A DNA stretch of 64,000 nucleotides from the NCBI GenBank assembly GCA_902781045.1, contig CACZHT010000011.1:1-64000 (forward strand). The letters run 5' to 3'. The notes under the pieces are model-generated. The model ran no database searches, had not been told where the DNA came from, and saw nothing but the letters and a program-made list of their open reading frames with translations. Position numbers and translations under genes: made by a program. This stretch comes from an uncultured Bacteroidales bacterium (GTDB lineage Bacteria; Bacteroidota; Bacteroidia; Bacteroidales; Muribaculaceae). This document shows positions 2,971 to 15,572 of this stretch, piece after piece (position 1 is the stretch's first letter; each line of letters opens with the position of its first letter).

Positions 2971-4419
2971 ATGACCATAATGAAGCATTTCATATCGCTC
3001 ATGTTGCTGCTGGGGGTGTTTACCCTGGCGGTGACCTCATGTGGCCGCTCGCCACTGGACAAGGCCGTCAAGAGTGCCCTGGTCAAGCAGGACACCACGC
3101 AGGCACAGTTCGACTCTATCTGCTCCATCATCAAGCAGAACCCTGACCGCTATAAGCAATATCTGGACGACCAGGGGCAAGTTGATGTGGCTCAGTTGCA
3201 GGCGCTCATCGACCAGGTGGGGGCCGACCTGCGACCGCCCATCCGCTGGGACATTGCCCGATATGGGCAACAGGAGTTGTCGCTCACCATCTACTTTGAG
3301 CGCAGCGGCTCGATGGTTCCCTACGACAACGCCGGCGACCGAGGTCAGCTCAAGAAGGCGGTCAACGACATCATCAACCACTTTCCGGGGCGGAAAGTCA
3401 ACATCAACATTGTCAACGACGGCATCTATCCCTATCAGGGCAGTGTCGACCAGTTTATCAAGGACCGCAACATCTATGCCAGCACGGCCGGAGTGGGCAA
3501 CTCGGCGTTCACCGACTTCCAGCAGATTTTCGGTGCCATCCTCAAGGCGCAGGATGCCACCAACGTCAGTGTGGTGGTCACCGACCTGATTTACTCGCCT
3601 GCTGATGCCGGTGATGTGAGCATCGACAAGATCCTGAACGAGGAGAACAGCCTGGCCACAAGCATCTTCCGCCAGTACAAGGGCAAGTCGGTGCTCGTGC
3701 ACCAGCTCATGGGCGACTACAACGGCAAGTACTATCCCTACACCAACCGTCCGGTCGAGTTCCGCGGCATGCGCCCCTTCTATCTGCTGGTGATTGCCGA
3801 CACGCCCGTGATGGACCGCATGGCCGCACAGGGTGAATACACCGAGCTGCTGCACCCGGCAGCCGTGCGCAACAGCTACCGCTTCAACCAGTCGGAGACA
3901 GCAGTAGACTATTGTGTGGTGCCCGACTGGAAGGACAATGCCGGGCGCTTCCGTGTCGACCACAAGGACCCCTCGCGTCTGCTCAAGTGCCAGGGTGACA
4001 AGAACACCGGTGTGCTGTGCATGACCATCGCTGCCCGCCTCGACGGGTTGCAGAAGGATGAGGCGTTTCTGGCCAATGCGCAGAACTACAAGCTGCAGTC
4101 GGTCAGCGGATTTGAGCTGAAAGTGACTCCCATCACTGCCGACATGATCACGGGCAACAACAAGGCGTATCTGGATGGGAAGACCCATCTGCTCACGCTC
4201 ACCGGCAAGATGAACGGTCCGCGCGACCAGGTTGTCATCAGTCTGCCCAACGAGATGCCCGCATGGATTGCGCAGAGCACCACTCGCGACGATACCAACC
4301 CCGCAGCCGCCGGCTTCTCGACCACTACGCTGGGGCTGCGTGAGTTTCTGGACGGCATCGCCAGTGCGTTCGGTGCCGGGGGCAACTACACCACCATCAC
4401 CCTCCACCTCGAGAACTAA
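2971..4419 (+). CDS. vWA-like lipoprotein, first gene of the tubulin/actin-like cluster
   Basis: 482 residues. The N-terminus is a lipoprotein signal (hydrophobic stretch, then 'AVTSCGR' with the lipobox Cys near residue 24), so it is predicted to be membrane-anchored outside the cytoplasm. From about residue 105 a Rossmann-like segment resembles a von Willebrand A domain: 'LTIYFERSGSM' sits at the DxSxS metal site but with Glu for the first Asp, followed by a possible Thr in 'SAFTDF' and Asp in 'VVVTDLIYSP'. The last 130 residues are beta-rich. It is followed after 30 bases by a small membrane protein. The vWA call is by motif only. It may sense or display something in the periplasm for the cytoplasmic tubulin-like and actin-like partners; this is inference. 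A second in-frame ATG is at 2980. Confidence 0.6.
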   Translation: MTIMKHFISLMLLLGVFTLAVTSCGRSPLDKAVKSALVKQDTTQAQFDSICSIIKQNPDRYKQYLDDQGQVDVAQLQALIDQVGADLRPPIRWDIARYGQQELSLTIYFERSGSMVPYDNAGDRGQLKKAVNDIINHFPGRKVNINIVNDGIYPYQGSVDQFIKDRNIYASTAGVGNSAFTDFQQIFGAILKAQDATNVSVVVTDLIYSPADAGDVSIDKILNEENSLATSIFRQYKGKSVLVHQLMGDYNGKYYPYTNRPVEFRGMRPFYLLVIADTPVMDRMAAQGEYTELLHPAAVRNSYRFNQSETAVDYCVVPDWKDNAGRFRVDHKDPSRLLKCQGDKNTGVLCMTIAARLDGLQKDEAFLANAQNYKLQSVSGFELKVTPITADMITGNNKAYLDGKTHLLTLTGKMNGPRDQVVISLPNEMPAWIAQSTTRDDTNPAAAGFSTTTLGLREFLDGIASAFGAGGNYTTITLHLEN

Positions 4420-4449
4420 CCCTCCCTTACTCATAACTCGCAACTGAAA

Positions 4450-4902
4450 ATGATGAAACAACAACATTACATCTATCTGGCACTGGGCATCGCGGCAACC
4501 ATCTTGTTCTATGTGCTGCGTGTTCAGGCCTACGAGGTGCTCTACTCAGTGCCCGGCTTCAGCGACCAGTTCTACAACGCTGGGCTGTACGACATGATTC
4601 CGCTCATCACCATCGTTGTGCCATGGGCGGCTGCGGCCGTCTACTATTTCGCCATCAACTCTGTGCGCTTCGACCGGTGGTATCACTGGCTGCTGGTGGG
4701 CGGCATCTCGACGGTGATAACCCCCATCATTGGCTACTCGCTTAACCAGAGCATGTTCAGCGACATGGGTCTGAGCTATGGCGCCGAGTCGGCCGCGTTC
4801 GAGCTGGTCAACATGCTCTGGGCTGCGGTGATGTATGTCATTGCCTCGTTCGCGATGCGGTGGTGGAGCACCAACTGCCGCCACACCCCCATCCCCCAAT
4901 AA
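4450..4902 (+). CDS. Small polytopic membrane protein
   Basis: 150 residues with about four hydrophobic helices (around 8-25, 50-70, 80-100 and 120-140) and no recognisable catalytic motif. It lies 30 bases after the vWA-like lipoprotein and is probably co-transcribed with it. Its stop codon (4900-4902) overlaps the first base pairs of the 28-bp tandem repeat array, so the array begins exactly where the coding sequence ends. Function unknown; a membrane partner of the lipoprotein is plausible. Confidence 0.6.
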   Translation: MMKQQHYIYLALGIAATILFYVLRVQAYEVLYSVPGFSDQFYNAGLYDMIPLITIVVPWAAAAVYYFAINSVRFDRWYHWLLVGGISTVITPIIGYSLNQSMFSDMGLSYGAESAAFELVNMLWAAVMYVIASFAMRWWSTNCRHTPIPQ

Positions 4903-5320
4903 CCGCAAAGCTCTCGCCATGGAACCGCGAAGCTCTCGCGAAAGACTTGGGGACCGCGAAGCTCTCGCGAAAGACTTGGAACCGCGAAGCTCTCGCGAAG
5001 AACTTGGGACCGCGAAGCTCTCGCGAAAGACTTGGAACCGCGAAGCTCTCGCGAAGAACTTGGGACCGCGAAGCTCTCGCGAAGGACTTGGGACCGCGAA
5101 GCTCTCGCGAAAGACTTGGGACCGCGAAGCTCTCGCGAAAGACTTGGGACCGCGAAGCTCTCGCGAAGGACTTGGGACCGCGAAGCTCTCGCCATGGAAC
5201 CGCGAAGCTCTCGCGAAGGACTTGGGACCGCGAAGCTCTCGCGAAGGACTTGGGACCGCGAAGCTCTCGCGAAAGACTTGGGACCGCGAAGCTCTCGCGA
5301 AGGACTTGGGACCGCGAAGG
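4901..5320. repeat. 28-bp tandem repeat array, 15 units
   Basis: Fifteen units, mostly of 28-bp period, each holding ACCGCGAAGCTCTCGCGAA followed by a short variable AGACTTGG-type spacer; two units have a shorter CCATGG variant. The arms CGCGA/TCGCG can pair within each unit. Because 28 is not a multiple of three and the unit lacks stops, long false ORFs (Arg/Ser/Leu/Ala-rich) appear in every frame. The reverse complement of the core, TTCGCGAGAGCTTCGCGGT, differs by one base from the repeats at 5846, so arrays of the same motif flank the GxxExxY gene in opposite orientation. Confidence 0.9.
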
Positions 5321-5338
5321 ACACAAGACAAGAGATAG

Positions 5339-5400
5339 ACGTTTCGCGAGTATTCGCGGTTAAGAATAACAAAAAAAGATTTGCGAGGATTCGCGATTAA
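5339..5400. repeat. TTCGCG-N-TTCGCGGT repeats upstream of the GxxExxY gene
   Basis: Two roughly 30-bp units (TTCGCGAGTATTCGCGGTT plus 'AAGAATAACAAA'; the second degenerate, with TTTGCGAGGATTCGCG) lie immediately before the ATG at 5408. They match the four units after the gene. Confidence 0.8.
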
Positions 5401-5407
5401 ATACAAT

Positions 5408-5836
5408 ATGGCTCAAGTGTTTAGAAATGATTTGCTCTATGCCAAGGAACGTTATGCGATTCTTGGTGCGGCAATGGCGGTTTTTGATGAATTGGGCAAC
5501 GGTTATGTAGAGCCGATATATCAAGATGCGCTTGAACTGGAGTTTCGGGCTCGTGGGATACCTTATGAGCGTGAAAAAGAGCTACATGTCCAATATAAGG
5601 GGCAACAGGTCAAACATTACTATAAAGCCGACTTTGTTTGTTATGGTAAAATCATAATAGAATTGAAAGCTGTGAGTTCGTTAAACAACGAGCATTTGGC
5701 ACAGACCATCAACTATTTGAAGACGACTGGTATGGAATTGGCATTATTGGCCAATTTTGGATCTAATATTCTTGAACGTAAGTGGCTGATATGTTCAAGG
5801 GTTCATAACACAATCACTATTCAAGAGCAGCGTTAA
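5408..5836 (+). CDS. GxxExxY family protein (PDDEXK_3-like)
   Basis: 142 residues from the ATG at 5408; an upstream in-frame start would run into the repeat. It has the family signature 'GYVEPIY' (GxxExxY), then 'YEREKEL', 'YKADFVCYGKIIIELKAV' (the D...E-x-K core of a PD-(D/E)XK fold) and 'LAQTINYLKTTGMELALLANFG'. Members are small putative nucleases of unknown role, common in Bacteroidetes. Its lower GC than the neighbouring genes and its flanking repeat arrays suggest that gene plus repeats arrived as a unit between the membrane protein and the tubulin-like gene. Confidence 0.85.
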   Translation: MAQVFRNDLLYAKERYAILGAAMAVFDELGNGYVEPIYQDALELEFRARGIPYEREKELHVQYKGQQVKHYYKADFVCYGKIIIELKAVSSLNNEHLAQTINYLKTTGMELALLANFGSNILERKWLICSRVHNTITIQEQR

Positions 5837-5845
5837 CTGCCAAAC

Positions 5846-5978
5846 AATTTTCGCGAGAGTTTCGCGGTTAAGAATAACAAACAATTTTCGCGAGTATTCG
5901 CGGTTAGGAATAACAAAAAAGATTCGCGAGATTTTCGCGGTTAAAAAAGAAAGAACTTCGCGAGTATTCGCGGTTAAA
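5846..5978. repeat. TTCGCG-N-TTCGCGGT repeats downstream of the GxxExxY gene
   Basis: Four units of 30-37 bp with core TTCGCGAG-N-TTCGCGGTTAA and A-rich 'GAATAACAAA' spacers. The last unit ends 12 bases before the start codon of the tubulin-like gene, so the promoter or leader of that gene lies inside repeat sequence. Confidence 0.85.
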
Positions 5979-5989
5979 ATGATAGGAAA

Positions 5990-7504
5990 ATGCGTTTATT
6001 TCTGTTTGCAATAGGTGGCACCGGGTCGCGAGTGCTCAAGTCGCTGATTATGCTCTCGGCAGCCGGCGTTCGGCCCGTCGACGACAATGGCCGTCCTGTG
6101 CCCAATGTAGAGATTGTGCCCATCATCATCGATCCTCACAAGAGCAACGAGGACCTCAAGCGCACAGAGGCACTGCTCACGGCTTATCGCAGCCTGCGCG
6201 AGCGTCTCTATGGCAATGCCGTCAATGCCGATGGCTTCTTTGCCACGCGCTTTGTCACCCTGCGCGAGATCATGAGCGAGGGCACCATTCAACTCAACGA
6301 CACGTTCATCTTCAACCTTGGGGCAGTCGAGCGCGAGAAGTTCCGCGACTTCATCGGCTACGACACCATGAACGAGGCCAATCAGGCGCTCACCTCGCTG
6401 CTGTTTGCCGACTACCAGCTGGAGAACCGCATGAACATAGGCTTTGTCGGCTCGCCCAACATCGGCTCGGTGGCGCTGAACGAAATCAAAGACAGCGACG
6501 AGTTCAAGGCGTTTGCCAACGTCTTCAGCCAGGGCGACCGCATCTTCTTTGTCAGTTCAATCTTTGGCGGAACTGGAGCGGCAGGATTTCCCATCATGGT
6601 GAAGAACATCCGCCGCGCCGACAGCCTGGACATCAACAACCGCGACGTGCTGCGGCGTGCGCCCATTGGCGGGCTGACCGTGCTGCCCTATTTCAACATC
6701 GAGCATAGCGAGGACAGCCGCATCAACAAGGCCGACTTTGTGGTCAAGACACAGAGTGCGCTGTTCTACTACAAGGACACGATGACCGGGGCCAACGATG
6801 CCAATGTCAACACCATCTTCTATGTCGGCGACCAGGAGGTGAGCAAGCCCTACACCTACGACCCTGGTGAGCACGGCCAGCGCAACCGTGCGCATCTGGT
6901 TGAGTTGGTCGGAGCACTGGCGCCGCTCAAGTTTGCCGGTCTGCCGCTTCAGCGGTTGAGCGACCCCAACGGCTACCCTCTGCCCACGACAGCCTACGAG
7001 TTTGCCCTCGACAAGGACGAGCGTGATGTCAATTTCCTCACTCTGCGTGCGGCCACGCGGCGGCTGGTCTATGACCCGCTGGTCAGGTTCCACCTGCTGT
7101 TCCTGTATCTGCGCACAGGGTTCCGCGAGCAGGTGGGGCAGGGCTACACCGAGGACGCTCCCAAGATCAAGAGCGACTTCCTCAACTCGCAGTTCTATCG
7201 CACGCTCACCGACGACTTCATGCGTGCATACGTCGACTGGCTGGTTGAGATGCACGACAACAACCGCTCGGTGAGCCTGTTCTGCCTGGGCGAGACCGAC
7301 ATGAACCGTGCCATCACTGCTGTGGCCACCCGCAAGGGTCTGTTTGGCCGCAAGAGCGTCGACAACAACGTGTTTAAGGCCGAGATGAACCGCCTGAGCC
7401 GCGATGCCCACTACAGCGAGCACACCGTCGAGTTCAAGCTGCTCGACCTGTTCAACCGCGCCGCCACCACCATCATCGGCGACCGCTACGAGAGCATCAA
7501 TTAA
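5990..7504 (+). CDS. Tubulin-like GTPase domain protein
   Basis: 504 residues, no signal peptide, cytoplasmic. The N-terminus 'LFLFAIGGTGSRVLKSL' (residues 3-19) is a glycine-rich nucleotide-binding strand-loop-helix. Around residue 190 'VSSIFGGTGAAGFPIM' resembles the tubulin/FtsZ signature GGTGSG. This pattern fits the bacterial 'tubulin-like' family (Tubulin_2 type) rather than FtsZ, which is also shorter. The C-terminal 250 residues are specific to this family. The ATG at 5990 is preceded by a purine-rich GATAGGAAA. The next gene, 72 bases on, is an actin/Hsp70-like ATPase, so two nucleotide-dependent polymer-type folds are encoded side by side. Polymerisation is inferred, not shown. Confidence 0.72.
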   Translation: MRLFLFAIGGTGSRVLKSLIMLSAAGVRPVDDNGRPVPNVEIVPIIIDPHKSNEDLKRTEALLTAYRSLRERLYGNAVNADGFFATRFVTLREIMSEGTIQLNDTFIFNLGAVEREKFRDFIGYDTMNEANQALTSLLFADYQLENRMNIGFVGSPNIGSVALNEIKDSDEFKAFANVFSQGDRIFFVSSIFGGTGAAGFPIMVKNIRRADSLDINNRDVLRRAPIGGLTVLPYFNIEHSEDSRINKADFVVKTQSALFYYKDTMTGANDANVNTIFYVGDQEVSKPYTYDPGEHGQRNRAHLVELVGALAPLKFAGLPLQRLSDPNGYPLPTTAYEFALDKDERDVNFLTLRAATRRLVYDPLVRFHLLFLYLRTGFREQVGQGYTEDAPKIKSDFLNSQFYRTLTDDFMRAYVDWLVEMHDNNRSVSLFCLGETDMNRAITAVATRKGLFGRKSVDNNVFKAEMNRLSRDAHYSEHTVEFKLLDLFNRAATTIIGDRYESIN

Positions 7505-7576
7505 TCTACAACACATAATTGCAGCAACACCGCAATTCACAATTTTCAATTTCACAACTTGCAATTGATATAGACA

Positions 7577-10500
7577 ATGAGCGAGATATTATCATACAGC
7601 AACAAGACATCGCATGGCGGGAGCGAGGACTGGATTCCCGTCGAGCCTTATCAGGACGATGACATCGCGCGCATCAAGGACCCTGACGGCGGGCTGAGCC
7701 GCAACCCGCGCACCGCCATACCCAGCCCGTTTGCCCAGCTTGACCTGGTCAAGAACGCCTTTGTGCAGCTGTCCAACCCCAGCCTGCGTGGGGCTGCTAT
7801 GAACGAGCGGCTGGTGTCCAATGCCCTGGACGTGATGCAGCTGCTGTTCGACTTTGAGAACCACAAGGACTATCTGCGCATTGTGCGCTGGAACCGTGAC
7901 GAGCAGCTTGAGGTGCTCACGAGCAACCCCACTCACCGCCTCTATGGCGAGACGTTGCGCCTGTTCCTCTCGACCGACATGGTCTATAACTTCGACCAAC
8001 TGCACGACTGGTACATCCTGATGTATGACAACCAGGTGTTGGGCGGCACCAGCCCGGCCTCGCTGGTGATGGCCGCGCCCGTCTGTGGGCCTGTCGAGGC
8101 CATCAAGGTCGAGCAGGGGGTGACACTGTTCTCGACCGACCGGCCGCTGTGGCAGCGCGACGAGGACTTTGTCTACTACATGTATCTGTTGATGAACGCC
8201 TACCCCGTGTTGCGCGAGCGCGTGGGCTGTGTCTACAGCTACATGATTCAGAACATCGACTACTTGCGCCGCCAGCGTCCCGAGCTCTATCGTCGCATCA
8301 CCGATGTGGTGCCCAACCTCAACGCGCTGAGCCACGACCTGGCCAACACGGTGCTCGAGCGGCTGGAGCAGACGTTCGACCGCTTTGGGGGCGATGCCGA
8401 CGTGAGCGTGCTGGGGGCGCGGTTCTACCACAAGCGCGTGCTCGACATCCGCACCAGCGCGGCCCAGAGCGACTTTGTCATCCAGCCCACCATGCCTCAG
8501 CCCGACGGCACGACCATGCCGCTGGTGCTGCGCACCGGGTTCAACGGCTCGGTCGAGCACTACCGCTACATCGACAAGGAGTGGGACAGCGCCACCGAGG
8601 TGCTGGCCGGCAGTGTTCCGCTGGCCCAGCGCAAGCTGCCCGACACCAGCATACAGTACCCCTTCCTGACCACAGCCGACTTCTTCACCGACACGCTGGT
8701 CAGGCTGAGCAATGCCATCGACACCGACCACTACTTCGACGGCAACCTGCGGGCCGGCGGCCAGACGGCCACGCGCGGCTACCTGTTGCCGCTCAAGCCC
8801 GAGTTCTTCCGCTGGTTCACCGCCGCCGACCTCAATGGCCGCGTGGTGGGGCGCAACATGATGGACATCGAGGAACTGAGCGACGGCAGTGTGCAGGTGA
8901 CCCTGCGCATCCCGGTCAAGAAGCGCTGCATCGAGCTGTCGCGCCGCTACCTCACCACCAACGATCCCACCTGGCAGTGGGACGAGCGCCGCGGCACCGG
9001 GCGCATGGTCGATGCCATCATGAGCGCGAGCATCTTCCCGTTTGTGCGCACCGGGCAGAACGACGACTACACCGTGCAGCTCTTCTCGATGATTCCTGAC
9101 GGGCAGGTGTCGTTGCGATTCATGCGCGATGGCAATAGCACTGTCGGGCTCAACGTCACCGACAAGGTGCGCACGCGTCAGGTGTTCACCACCACCTACT
9201 ATGACATCAACGGCACATGGGACTATGCCGAGGCCACTGTGCACATGCCGATAGGCAACTTTGCCGGCATCATTCTGCCCATGTGGAAGCCTTACACCCC
9301 TTCGGCACGTGAGCTGGTGTTTGCCGTCGACTTCGGCACGACCAACACCCACGTCGAGTGGGCCGACCGCGGCCAGGTGTCGCAACCGTTGACCTTCGAC
9401 TGGAGCAGCGACCAGGTGCTCATCGCCTCGCTGCTTAAGCAGGGCGGACTGGACATCGCCGAACAGCTGCAGCGCATCGAGTTCCTGCCCCGGGTCATCG
9501 ACTCGGTCTATGGCTTCCCGCTGCGCTCGTCGCTGGCACGCAACCAGAGCAGCGACGGCGGCAACAAGCTGTTCCACGATGTCAACATCCCCTTCCTCTA
9601 CGAGCGCAAGCACTTCAATGGCTATGAGGTGACCACCAACCTCAAGTGGATGGGCGACACCACACTGGCCCGCGAATTTCTGCGCGAGCTAATGCTGCTC
9701 ATCAAGGCCAAGGCACTGCTTGAGAATGCCGACCTCGGGCGCACCCAGGTCATCTACTTCTTCCCGGTGAGCATGGGCGGCAGCGACCGCCGCAAGCTGC
9801 AGGACACCTGGGAGGACCTCTACCGCACCTACATGGGCAGCGACCTCAGTCACTTGCAGGCCTATCCCGAATCGATAGCGCCGGCATTCTACTACAAGGG
9901 TGCCTCGGTGAGTGGCAGCAGCTATGTGAGCATCGACATCGGCGGCGGCACCAGCGACATCGTCATCTATCAGCCCACGGCCGACCGTCTGGCCAGCCAT
10001 CCGGTGGCCATCTCGTCGTTCCGCTTCGCTGGCAATGCCCTCTTTGGCGACGCCTTCGGCGAGCGCGACGCCGACACCAACCCCCTGCTGCAGCACTACA
10101 GCCAGTATTTCACACGTCTCATCGGCAACGACCACTCGACGGGCATCAACTACCTCACCGACATTCTGCACGACATCATGCAGCAGAAGCGCAGCGAGGA
10201 CATCAACGCCTTCCTCTTCTCGATCGAGAATGTCGAGGAGTTGCGTGGCCTGCGCGACATCGACCGCAACCTCTACAGCTACAACACGCTGCTGCGCAAC
10301 GATGAGCAGCGCAAGCTGGTGTTCCTCTACTTCTACTCGGCACTCATCTACTACATCGCACGCACCATGCGAGCACGCAACTATGAGAAGCCCAAGCAGG
10401 TCTACTTCAGCGGCACCGGCTCGAAGATTCTGAACATCGTGGGCAGTCACGGGCAAGTCGAGGAACTCACGCAGCGCATCATCGAGTGTGTCTTCGATGA

Positions 10501-11020
10501 GCACTATGCCGAGCAGTTCGAAATCAAGATTGAGACCGAGTGCCCCAAGCAGATCACTTGCCGCGGCGGCATCAAGCTCGAGAACCAGCGCCTCGACGGG
10601 CAGGTCAGCACCGCCGTCTACAGCCCGCGCAACGTGGTCGCGCTCAAGTATTGCTACTCGATGCTGGGCGACGAGCAGCTGACCTTTGAGCAGGTCAACG
10701 ACCTGACGGTGCGAGGGCAAATCGTGCAGCAGGTGCGAGAGTTCAACGACTTCTTCATCACGCTGTTTGACAAGGCCACGAAGGACGACTTCGGCATCGA
10801 TAACACGGTGCTCAAGTTGTTCGCCAGTGTGGTGGGCAACGACCTGGACAACTACCTCACCGCGGGCATCAACAGTTATCTGGGCGGGCGCTATGAGCCG
10901 GGCGATGTGGTCGAGGATGTCCCATTCTTCTATCCCATCATCGGCACCATCCGCTACAACCTGCTGCGCAACTTGTGCAACGAAGTCATCACCCGATTGC
11001 GCAACCAGGGCAACATCTAG
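7577..11020 (+). CDS. Large actin/Hsp70-like ATPase with unknown N-terminal half
   Basis: 1147 residues, soluble. Residues 1 to about 570 have no motif I recognise. From about 575 an actin/Hsp70 fold is visible: phosphate-1 'VFAVDFGTTNTHVEW' (about 577-592), 'VIYFFPVSMGGSDRRKL' at about 725, phosphate-2 'YVSIDIGGGTSDIVIY' (about 783-798) and an adenosine-type motif 'VYFSGTGSKIL' at about 941. The tail after about 1000 is again of unknown type. Hsp70s are usually about 640 residues and actins about 375, so this is a much larger architecture. SrfB-like proteins are an alternative family assignment. It is co-directional with the tubulin-like gene (72-bp gap) and the coiled-coil membrane protein. 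Confidence 0.75.
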   Translation: MSEILSYSNKTSHGGSEDWIPVEPYQDDDIARIKDPDGGLSRNPRTAIPSPFAQLDLVKNAFVQLSNPSLRGAAMNERLVSNALDVMQLLFDFENHKDYLRIVRWNRDEQLEVLTSNPTHRLYGETLRLFLSTDMVYNFDQLHDWYILMYDNQVLGGTSPASLVMAAPVCGPVEAIKVEQGVTLFSTDRPLWQRDEDFVYYMYLLMNAYPVLRERVGCVYSYMIQNIDYLRRQRPELYRRITDVVPNLNALSHDLANTVLERLEQTFDRFGGDADVSVLGARFYHKRVLDIRTSAAQSDFVIQPTMPQPDGTTMPLVLRTGFNGSVEHYRYIDKEWDSATEVLAGSVPLAQRKLPDTSIQYPFLTTADFFTDTLVRLSNAIDTDHYFDGNLRAGGQTATRGYLLPLKPEFFRWFTAADLNGRVVGRNMMDIEELSDGSVQVTLRIPVKKRCIELSRRYLTTNDPTWQWDERRGTGRMVDAIMSASIFPFVRTGQNDDYTVQLFSMIPDGQVSLRFMRDGNSTVGLNVTDKVRTRQVFTTTYYDINGTWDYAEATVHMPIGNFAGIILPMWKPYTPSARELVFAVDFGTTNTHVEWADRGQVSQPLTFDWSSDQVLIASLLKQGGLDIAEQLQRIEFLPRVIDSVYGFPLRSSLARNQSSDGGNKLFHDVNIPFLYERKHFNGYEVTTNLKWMGDTTLAREFLRELMLLIKAKALLENADLGRTQVIYFFPVSMGGSDRRKLQDTWEDLYRTYMGSDLSHLQAYPESIAPAFYYKGASVSGSSYVSIDIGGGTSDIVIYQPTADRLASHPVAISSFRFAGNALFGDAFGERDADTNPLLQHYSQYFTRLIGNDHSTGINYLTDILHDIMQQKRSEDINAFLFSIENVEELRGLRDIDRNLYSYNTLLRNDEQRKLVFLYFYSALIYYIARTMRARNYEKPKQVYFSGTGSKILNIVGSHGQVEELTQRIIECVFDEHYAEQFEIKIETECPKQITCRGGIKLENQRLDGQVSTAVYSPRNVVALKYCYSMLGDEQLTFEQVNDLTVRGQIVQQVREFNDFFITLFDKATKDDFGIDNTVLKLFASVVGNDLDNYLTAGINSYLGGRYEPGDVVEDVPFFYPIIGTIRYNLLRNLCNEVITRLRNQGNI

Positions 11021-11081
11021 TTTCCATTAACAACGGTAAAACTGCGCCGTGACACCTGTCACGGCCAAAACACGACAAAGT

Positions 11082-12179
11082 ATGAAAAGACTCGTCACAA
11101 TATGCCTGGCGGCCATGATGATGCTGGTGGCCATGGCGCAAACAAATGACACAACGGCCTTGACACCCACGCAGTGGCAGCACGCACTGGCGGTCATCGC
11201 ACAGTATGAGGCTCTCAACAGCGGCTATGGGCAGAAGACCGAGACCTTCGAGGCACAGGCACCGCAGGGCTATACGCTCGACGACCTGGACGCGACCTAT
11301 CGCTCGCAGAGCCAGTGGGAGCCGGTCTACAGTCGCCTCAAGGCCATGGAGAATGATGGCGGCACCATGGCGCGTGTCAAGCAACTGGCCGGCCCGCTGG
11401 CGCAGCATGTCGAGCGCGACATGACCCGATTCCTGCAAGCACAGCCCCAACAGCAGCAGGTGGCCGAGGTCGACACGGCAGCCCCCATGCCCGACACCAT
11501 CCCGGTGACCGATGTGCCCCAAGAACCGGCGCAAGCCGAGACCAAGGGTGGCCTGAACGGACATCTGCTGCTCGACATCCTGCTGGCTCTGCTGGCATTG
11601 GGTGCGTTGGGGTTGGCATGGCTCACGCGCAGCGAGCTCAACAAGCTGCGGCGCGCCACCCGCTCGGAGCTGGAGACCACCAACGAGAACATGCAGCAGC
11701 TGGCCAACGACGTATCGCAGCATGTCAAGGCACTGCTGCAGCGTGTGGGCAACATCGAGGCCAACCAACGCGTGATGCGGCCCCGACAAGTGGGGACCAC
11801 AAGCCATGCCCAGACCGAGCAACCGCCCGTGCGGCAGCAGCGGCAAGAACAGGCTGTGACACACACCTACTATCTGTCCAAGCCCGACGAGAACGACTGC
11901 TTCAACCGGGCCAGCGAACAGTTTGAACTTGGCAACTCGCTGTTTGTGCTCACCACCACCGATGGGGTCAACGGCACATTCCAGGTCATCGACAACCGCG
12001 ACGTGCACCGCTTTGCACTGATGATGCCCACCGAGAACCTCACGCGCGCCTGTTCGGGAAATGCCATCCAGATGTCGGCCGGCATGACACGCATCGTCAC
12101 CGACCGGCCCGGCGAGGCCGTGCTCGACAACGGTCAGTGGCGCATCATCGTCAAGGCCATCATCCACTATGAGGCCTAG
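11082..12179 (+). CDS. Signal/TM coiled-coil protein of the tubulin/actin-like cluster
   Basis: 365 residues from the ATG at 11082 (MKRLVTICLAAMMMLVAMA, a signal peptide); an upstream GTG at 11049 is less likely. After a helical region comes a Gln/Pro-rich stretch, then a transmembrane helix 'LLLDILLALLALGALGLAWL' at about 165-184. This is followed at once by a coiled coil ('SELETTNENMQQLANDVSQHVKALLQRV'-like heptads), a basic Gln-rich linker and a conserved-looking C-terminal domain of about 100 residues ending 'WRIIVKAIIHYEA'. With a cleaved signal and one TM, the coiled coil and C-domain should be cytoplasmic, suited to contact the actin-like or tubulin-like protein. That role is inferred; the family is unknown to me. 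Confidence 0.6.
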   Translation: MKRLVTICLAAMMMLVAMAQTNDTTALTPTQWQHALAVIAQYEALNSGYGQKTETFEAQAPQGYTLDDLDATYRSQSQWEPVYSRLKAMENDGGTMARVKQLAGPLAQHVERDMTRFLQAQPQQQQVAEVDTAAPMPDTIPVTDVPQEPAQAETKGGLNGHLLLDILLALLALGALGLAWLTRSELNKLRRATRSELETTNENMQQLANDVSQHVKALLQRVGNIEANQRVMRPRQVGTTSHAQTEQPPVRQQRQEQAVTHTYYLSKPDENDCFNRASEQFELGNSLFVLTTTDGVNGTFQVIDNRDVHRFALMMPTENLTRACSGNAIQMSAGMTRIVTDRPGEAVLDNGQWRIIVKAIIHYEA

Positions 12180-12272
12180 CGAGAACCAAGAAGCAAGAAG
12201 CGAGAATTAAAAAGCAAGAATCAGGAGCCAAGGACTGAGCCGTCGGCGTAGTCCGAGGCTCTGTCCCGGAAC

Positions 12273-12761
12273 ATGAACTGGAAGTGTCCAAATTGCGGAA
12301 AACGTGTCGTCTTCTCGGACGAGCAACTGGCCGAGACGCGGGGTGTGGTCGTGTGTCCACAGTGCCTGTCCAGCGACCAGCTGCCAGGCTATGACGCACC
12401 TCGAGCCAGGCACAAGTCGTCGTCATCCGCTGCATCCGTTTCGCCGCCAGTGCCATCTTCATCACCATCACCATCACCATCACAAACAACTCAACAACCC
12501 CGCAAAGTGACCACCCCCCCGCCGCATCGGCAGCGTCAATCGCCACCGCCTCATCGCCCCAAAATCACCTTTGCCGACACTGCCGCCGACCCGCCGAAAA
12601 GGACACGAAAAGGAGGCACCGCAAAGAAGAAAGCCAAGAATGCCTCGAGTGGTTTCATGGCCCCCAAGTCGCCGCTGGGATGCCTGTGGCGGTCGGTCGT
12701 CTATACGCTAGTACTGCTCATTATCTACGTTGTCTTCGGCCTGCTCATGCAGGGGCTGTAG
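12273..12761 (+). CDS. Zinc-ribbon protein with C-terminal membrane helix
   Basis: 162 residues. The N-terminus 'MNWKCPNCGKRVVFSDEQL...VVCPQC' is a CxxC...CxxC zinc ribbon of the kind seen at the start of many zinc-ribbon membrane proteins. The middle (about 50-125) is Pro/Ser/Lys-rich and disordered, encoded partly by a CATCAC repeat near 12460-12482. Residues about 138-158 ('VVYTLVLLIIYVVFGLLM') form one TM helix. It is the last gene of the cluster with a recognisable link to it. Function unknown. Confidence 0.6.
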   Translation: MNWKCPNCGKRVVFSDEQLAETRGVVVCPQCLSSDQLPGYDAPRARHKSSSSAASVSPPVPSSSPSPSPSQTTQQPRKVTTPPPHRQRQSPPPHRPKITFADTAADPPKRTRKGGTAKKKAKNASSGFMAPKSPLGCLWRSVVYTLVLLIIYVVFGLLMQGL

Positions 12762-14237: not shown

Positions 14238-14453
14238 GGGATGTGCGCCTGGCAGAGGGAAACCCCACCCCCAGCCCCTCCCCTTTGGGAAAGGGGAGGG
14301 GAAGCTGAGGATGCACCGCCTGGCAGAGGGGAAACCCCACCCCCGGCCCCTCCCCTTTGGGAAAGGGGAGGGGAAGCTGAGGATTCACCGCCTGGCTGAG
14401 GGGAAACCCCACCCCCGGCCCCTCCCCTTTGGGAAAGGGGAGGGGAGCTGTGA
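14238..14453. repeat. CCCCTCCCC/GGGGAGGGG palindromic repeat array
   Basis: Three nearly identical direct units of about 65 bp: GCCTGGC, AGGGGAAACCCCACCCC, then the CCCCTCCCCTTTGGGAAAGGGGAGGGG-type palindrome (described, not quoted in full) and AGCTGAGGAT. They lie between the 197-bp element and the GGGGACGGTTCT hairpin. Confidence 0.85.
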
Positions 14454-15336: not shown

Positions 15337-15572
15337 ACACCCGCTCCCCTCCCAGGGGAGCTGGTGGATGCCCGCCTGGCTGAGGGAAACCCCACCCCCG
15401 GCCCCTCCCCTTTGGGAAAGGGGAGGGGAGGTTGAGGATGCACTGCCTGGCTGAGGGAACCCCCACCCCCGGCCCCTCCCCTGCTAGGGGAGGGGAGGTT
15501 GAGGATCCATGCCTGGCTGAGGGAAACCCCACCCCTGGCCCCTCCCCTTTGGGAAAGGGGAGGGGAGGTGGC
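15337..15572. repeat. CCCCTCCCC/GGGGAGGGG palindromic repeat array
   Basis: Three to four units with GCCTGGCTGAGGGAAACCCC linkers between the second long-hairpin element and the upp gene. One unit has a CTAGGGG loop instead of the TTTGGGAAA loop. Bases 15573-15637 hold nothing recognisable. Confidence 0.85.

Follow-up and report, generated by a model that had tools for sequence, protein, structure and literature searches.

The window analysed here is a 64,000-nt stretch of contig CACZHT010000011.1 (assembly GCA_902781045.1) from an uncultured Bacteroidales gut bacterium of the Muribaculaceae. Near its start lies an operon that encodes a tubulin-like protein (TUB) and an actin/Hsp70-like protein (ACT), together with a vWA-like lipoprotein, a small multi-transmembrane (TM) protein (TM150), a signal/TM coiled-coil protein (CC) and a zinc-ribbon TM protein (ZnTM). 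A first-pass annotation had listed these six genes as one system and all were located where it had placed them, on the plus strand; a seventh, encoding a GxxExxY/PDDEXK_3 protein, was found between TM150 and TUB. The operon and its tubulin/actin pairing are confirmed, and five of the genes, those for the vWA-like lipoprotein, the TM protein, TUB, ACT and CC, constitute a conserved unit. The sixth, ZnTM, follows the core in the window's family only (52 loci) and is a lineage-specific accessory outside that unit.

A TUB-based scan of GTDB genomes identified 78 loci, in which partners were counted only where the contig reaches. The vWA-like lipoprotein and the TM protein were each present in 70/70 loci, ACT in 68/69 and CC in 64/66; the 69th locus of the ACT count has an Rhs-like stretch in place of ACT. 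Among 297 complete-enough Bacteroidota genomes TUB was found in seven and ACT in six, the same six genomes, with the two genes adjacent, while the seventh TUB genome has a diverged pair. Co-occurrence of TUB and ACT had been set as a test beforehand and was borne out in both samples. The order vWA-TM-TUB-ACT-CC is held from the Muribaculaceae to Cryomorpha, Chitinophaga, Hydrotalea, Persicitalea and others. The TUB and ACT pairwise distances gave the highest correlation of all gene pairs (r = 0.993; 0.989 among distant loci), where lineage relatedness inflates all values and only the ranking is usable. The low dN/dS of TUB and ACT (0.06-0.16, against close relatives) and the retention of the window proteins in other classes at 35-45% identity indicate that the open frames are real genes. 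The operon is carried by 36 of the 37 genomes of the host genus, and this near-universality, together with purifying selection, is what a physiological role would predict. The operon lies beside trmD and a septum-initiator-like gene in 19 related loci, and in the window's clade beside upp/kbl instead.

Table 1 Features of the operon region, in window coordinates.
Feature	Position	Strand	Characteristics
vWA-like lipoprotein	2980..4419	+	Lipobox VTSC; motif resembling the metal ion-dependent adhesion site (MIDAS), ERSGSM; conserved ...TDL
TM150	4450..4902	+	Small multi-TM protein; conserved C-terminal NCRHTPIPQ tail
28-bp tandem repeat	4920..5319		14.5 copies; insertion separating TM150 from TUB, outside the conserved unit
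GxxExxY/PDDEXK_3 protein	5381..5836	+	PF13366, E = 2.4e-37; passenger, 9 loci only
TUB	5990..7504	+	Divergent tubulin-like GTPase, 504 aa; T1 GGTGSR, T4 FGGTGAAG, T7-like N299-x-x-H302-x-x-E305
ACT	7577..11020	+	1147 aa; N-terminal ~570 aa of unrecognised fold, then actin/Hsp70-fold ATPase
ACT motifs			D585FGTTN, K690W, D787IGGGTSD, SGTGS 945-949
CC	11082..12179	+	Signal peptide, one TM, coiled coil, conserved C-domain
ZnTM	12273..12761	+	N-terminal zinc ribbon (MJ0042 CXXC, 21.1 bits vs cut-off 20.9), C-terminal TM

Two of the open reading frames begin upstream of the starts given in Table 1. That of the vWA-like lipoprotein opens at 2971, with the ATG at 2980 as the likelier start, and that of CC opens with a GTG at 11049, the MKRLV at 11082 being likelier. 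The GxxExxY gene and the 28-bp repeat were set aside as passengers because their position is not conserved: a GxxExxY relative sits between TUB and ACT instead in L043, L050, L051 and L058. The 28-bp repeat, just upstream of TUB, has 91% match and frames open on both strands. Repeats of 66-92 bp with the core CCCCTCCCCTTTGGGAAAGGGGAGGGG flank the operon on both sides (2551-2782, 14246-14450 and 15354-15569).

Several other loci are informative about the neighbourhood of TUB and ACT. At L038 the 10 kb downstream of TUB is taken up by an Rhs-like/ATPase stretch and ACT may lie beyond it, and at G451/L138 a TUB gene without a visible ACT is found at a contig edge. Rhs-like pieces with an ATPase gene occur between TUB and ACT in L030 (11642-14940) and downstream of TUB in L038 (14558-21510), and the ATPase genes of the two loci are near-identical. 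The host genome has a second, divergent copy of the operon (L101/L102, G000:C14:62001-89842) with two ACT genes; its neighbours encode an aspartyl-protease lipoprotein, several zinc-ribbon TM proteins, a TM2 protein, an M15 peptidase and an L,D-transpeptidase, and a Ser/Thr kinase gene lies upstream on the opposite strand. In Prevotella sp. oral taxon 299 F0039 the five-gene core and a zinc-ribbon protein are encoded on the 1.77-Mb second replicon (L151, NC_022111.1:615284-638727).

The core proteins of the window matched almost nothing in the family libraries, and profile searches of the PDB with the TUB, ACT and vWA alignments gave no informative relative. Sequence-library matches of TUB were all sub-threshold (PF00091, E = 0.027; PF13809, E = 0.077), and against Tubulin_2 (PF13809) the window protein reached 12.7 bits, below the gathering cut-off of 27. 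When the AlphaFold model of TUB (pLDDT 78) was searched against the PDB, the top 50 matches were exclusively tubulin, FtsZ and TubZ chains (E ~1.5e-3, probability 0.8-1.0, TM-score only 0.2-0.25). Despite the poor superposition, the model clearly points to membership of the tubulin/FtsZ superfamily, as the first-pass annotation had claimed from motifs. The homologue from Gloeothece passes the Tubulin_2 cut-off (40.8 bits vs 27), which ties the TUB family to FtsZl1/Tubulin_2. In an hhalign comparison of TUB with the Bacteroidales FtsZl1 (3 template rows) the T4-loop region alone aligned (probability 2.6, E = 0.017). The T1 and T4 loops of TUB are kept across phyla. The nucleotide sites were compared in 15 TUB and 13 ACT proteins from the Bacteroidota and Cyanobacteria; in TUB, G9-G12, G193-G196 and N299-x-x-H302-x-x-E305 are invariant in all or all but one, and the last of these probably occupies the expected place of the T7 loop.

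In ACT the invariant positions, again in all or all but one of the proteins, are D585FGT, K690W691, D787IGG-T792-D794 and G946-G948. The ATPase carries the phosphate-1, phosphate-2 and adenosine motifs that define the actin/Hsp70/MreB superfamily, and Foldseek searches with the AlphaFold model (pLDDT 64 overall, 60-90 across most of residues 700-1140) matched Hsp70 nucleotide-binding domains (2e-7), the BeeR filament (7.7e-7) and MreB (2e-6), in agreement with the actin/Hsp70 assignment proposed earlier. No recognised relative was found for the first ~570 residues. That Hsp70 domains are the best structural matches raises the alternative of a chaperone for envelope proteins, in which ACT would supply the ATPase activity, with the vWA protein as co-chaperone and TUB in a scaffolding or regulatory role, and accessory proteases and cell-wall enzymes would clear failed substrates. 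The accessory genes described below are mainly envelope hydrolases, and vWA proteins serve as co-chaperones in MoxR systems. This explanation is nevertheless improbable: MreB and BeeR score nearly equal to Hsp70, no Hsp70 substrate-binding domain was recognised after the ATPase domain of ACT, DnaJ/GrpE are not found near the operon, and the tubulin partner is left unexplained.

The vWA-like lipoprotein had no library or PDB profile match and its assignment is by motif only. In its MIDAS-like motif the first Asp is replaced by Glu (ERSGSM). The E-x-S-x-S form is found in the main Bacteroidota lineages and the canonical D-x-S-x-S in outliers, namely DCSASM in G046 and DGSGSM in Picosynechococcus. 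CC consists of a signal peptide, a TM segment and basic residues followed by the C-domain, which is conserved to the cyanobacteria with G162 and W171 (numbering of the aligned stretch) retained; the C-domain is predicted to face the cytoplasm. Pfam and NCBIfam scans of the window proteins gave no match to SrfB.

Counterparts of the operon are found on cyanobacterial plasmids. In Picosynechococcus PCC 7003 the vWA, TM, TUB, ACT and CC-like genes are in the same order as in the window (profile matches: TUB 1e-32, ACT 4e-27, CC 6e-6, vWA 1e-8), and in Gloeothece PCC 7822 the order is partial (TM-TUB-ACT-CC-like). In Synechocystis, Sll0445, Sll0446 and Sll0447 have Tubulin_2, FtsA and DivIC domains, respectively; interruption of each of the three genes impairs phototaxis, and their products fractionate together with proteins of pilus assembly and of the photosystems (PMC9880817). 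The genes sll0443-sll0449 are one predicted SyCRP1-controlled seven-gene unit (PMC2633013), in which sll0443-0445 and sll0448 are altered in a lexA mutant (PMC4759255), and a comFB mutant shows deregulation of Sll0445 and Sll0446 (PMC12313861). A type IV pilus link was rejected for the window's host, the genome of which has no PilT/T2SSE family match; the pilus role therefore does not transfer and the output there must differ.

The cyanobacterial ACT has matches to FtsA (4e-5) and MreB (1e-3), both below the cut-off, and the combination of a tubulin-like protein, an actin-like protein and a membrane coiled coil follows the logic of FtsZ, FtsA and DivIC. A cell-division or cell-shape module, built on an FtsZ/FtsA-like pair and a DivIC-like coiled coil, is however very improbable, given that the operon is absent from most Bacteroidota and that the Synechocystis interruption mutants are viable (PMC9880817). 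The large N-terminal half of ACT is also unlike FtsA, and division genes include neither the periplasmic lipoprotein nor the motor partners.

The genes that accompany the core differ between lineages. Ten loci, belonging to Flavobacteriales-, Chitinophagales- and Cytophagales-type genomes and to one further Bacteroidales family, encode two proteins after CC that match PADLOC profiles: a MotA-like one whose cytoplasmic tail is long (ZorA2, 6e-6) and a MotB/OmpA-like one (ZorB1, 8e-13). This ZorAB-like pair often precedes an aspartyl-protease lipoprotein (2.6e-15) and a staphylococcal-nuclease (SNase) lipoprotein (3e-27), and in the 297-genome sample all strong matches to the ZorA-like subfamily were in genomes that also encode TUB and ACT. 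None of ZorC, ZorD and ZorE was found among the neighbours scanned. Other relatives have an L,D-transpeptidase, an M15 carboxypeptidase, a C92 amidase or a trypsin-like protease nearby, and in the G046 relative a KGGVGR ATPase (7e-40) is fused to a GTPase-like region. The signal peptides and families of the accessory proteins suggest that most of them act in the envelope. Elsewhere in the host genome, on another contig, a ZorA/ZorB-like pair lies beside a 779-aa PD-(D/E)XK protein (L150, G000:C13, 8434-12979), possibly a separate Zorya-like defence locus. A diverged TUB, a 1302-aa MreB-like protein and a run of TerD proteins are encoded in one operon at L125 (G244:C4:132000-151000), which may point to a connection with stress systems of the tellurium-resistance type.

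These neighbours bear on the main rival explanation, an anti-phage or conflict system in which envelope damage would be sensed by the vWA lipoprotein or a peptidoglycan-anchored ZorAB-like motor, TUB and ACT would assemble, and variable effectors would act on the invader or host. The proposed effectors would be the SNase, the proteases, the KGGVGR ATPase-GTPase and the PDDEXK protein. The operon is sparse across the phylum (6-7/297 genomes) and plasmid-borne in cyanobacteria, the ZorAB-like pair occurs in ten loci, the neighbours vary (SNase, aspartyl and trypsin-like proteases, KGGVGR ATPase, TerD), and there is a thematic match to the DO-GTPase conflict systems with tubulins or HSP70 (PMC7159879). 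We nonetheless consider defence rather unlikely, though a serious contender. The near-universality in the host genus, the strong purifying selection and the fixed place beside trmD of the 19 related loci all speak against it, as do the motility phenotype of the cyanobacterial counterpart and the lack of ZorC/D/E in the neighbourhoods. The core genes have no meaningful PADLOC match and the window has no obvious effector.

Probably, the operon encodes a real, little-studied bacterial cytoskeletal machine. The explanation that we favour, with some hesitation, is a five-gene envelope-anchored module of cytoskeletal nucleoside triphosphatases, TUB and ACT, acting on lineage-specific envelope machinery. 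It is supported by the gene order kept across the Bacteroidota and Picosynechococcus, the top-ranking TUB-ACT correlation, the conserved nucleotide sites, the Synechocystis phototaxis phenotype and the ZorAB-like pair. TUB (with GTP) and ACT (with ATP) would be cytoplasmic partners that probably co-assemble, and CC and the small TM protein would anchor the assembly to the inner membrane. The vWA-like lipoprotein may report or transmit a ligand or stress state from the periplasmic/outer-membrane side, and the assembly would organise, switch or power envelope machinery specific to each lineage. This is probably the type IV pilus apparatus in cyanobacteria, and in many Bacteroidota probably a ZorAB-like motor driven by the proton-motive force (PMF), accompanied by proteases, nuclease or cell-wall enzymes of the periplasm. 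Within the window's family, ZnTM is the local accessory. A stronger form is doubtful: in it the tubulin and actin would assemble together at the inner membrane, with CC and, in many lineages, a ZorAB-like rotary motor coupling them mechanically to effectors in the periplasm. If true, it would be the first system to combine both cytoskeletal superfamilies and a PMF motor in a single envelope task.

Several observations weigh against the favoured explanation. The diverged TUB locus G367/L136 has no adjoining ACT, so the pairing is not strictly obligate. The AlphaFold models are built on shallow alignments and their TM-scores are low, and the polymerisation and mutual contact of TUB and ACT are putative. 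ZorAB-like genes are not found beside the window operon, and the host genome, as noted above, has no pilus ATPase match. The equivalence with the Synechocystis genes is an analogy from gene order and published domain names.

The interpretation given by the first-pass annotation is partly supported. The link to the envelope and the membrane topology are reasonable, the role of the vWA lipoprotein as an "envelope sensor" is conjectural, and five of its six genes are a conserved core. Its view of the operon as a candidate new system is tempered by two points: a tubulin family with vWA partners has been known since 2010, and one operon of this type, that of Synechocystis, is published with its phototaxis phenotype. 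In the openly licensed literature no description was found of a constant actin-like partner, of the five-gene core in two phyla or of the association with ZorAB-like motors and envelope hydrolases, an absence that is weak evidence. Bacterial systems that pair a tubulin with an actin are few, the divisome aside; here such a pair is kept together in two phyla, within a unit whose other genes encode envelope proteins and, in many lineages, a Zorya-like motor. The protein set is testable in cultured relatives, which include Chitinophaga, Cryomorpha, Picosynechococcus and Prevotella sp. oral taxon 299, strain F0039 of the last being a human oral isolate that could be used to study the system.

The operon links three literatures, those on FtsZl1-vWA systems, the Synechocystis phototaxis operon and MotAB/ZorAB-type motors. 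In 2010 Makarova and Koonin reported the FtsZl1 family and its vWA and OmpA partners, and proposed a role in membrane remodelling (PMC2875224). Like FtsZl1/Tubulin_2, the window has a tubulin-superfamily GTPase with vWA-motif and membrane partners, but the FtsZl1 proteins are ~1000 aa with a coiled coil, whereas TUB, at 504 aa, has no extended coiled coil and falls below the family cut-off. The window also has an actin-like partner, which is not described in the text of PMC2875224, and lacks a neighbouring gene for a P-loop GTPase. DO-GTPase (GAP1-N2) systems with tubulins or HSP70, predicted to function in conflict (PMC7159879), share the tubulin, vWA and Hsp70-fold theme, and the KGGVGR ATPase-GTPase of the G046 relative is a further likeness. 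In those systems, however, tubulin and HSP70 are separate themes, found in the Firmicutes and Actinobacteria and built on DO-GTPase and GAP1, and neither gene was found among the window operon genes scanned. ZorA and ZorB of Zorya form a 5:2 motor (PMC11890865), and relatives of the window operon carry MotA-like and MotB/OmpA proteins that match their profiles; unlike Zorya, the window operon has cytoskeletal genes and no adjoining ZorA/ZorB. As for the FtsZ/FtsA divisome, no FtsA or FtsZ family match exceeded the cut-off and the operon is sparse in the phylum. Plasmid partition (ParMRC/TubZRC) was rejected, as the window copy is genus-wide, has no DNA-binding adaptor and includes an envelope lipoprotein; a phage origin was also rejected, TUB being matched by no phage record. 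The Synechocystis sll0443-sll0449 genes have the same order of tubulin-like, actin-like and coiled-coil proteins as the window and form a seven-gene unit, as does the Picosynechococcus plasmid cluster with matching TUB, ACT, CC and vWA genes; unlike the window operon, they are cyanobacterial and tied to type IV pili and phototaxis.

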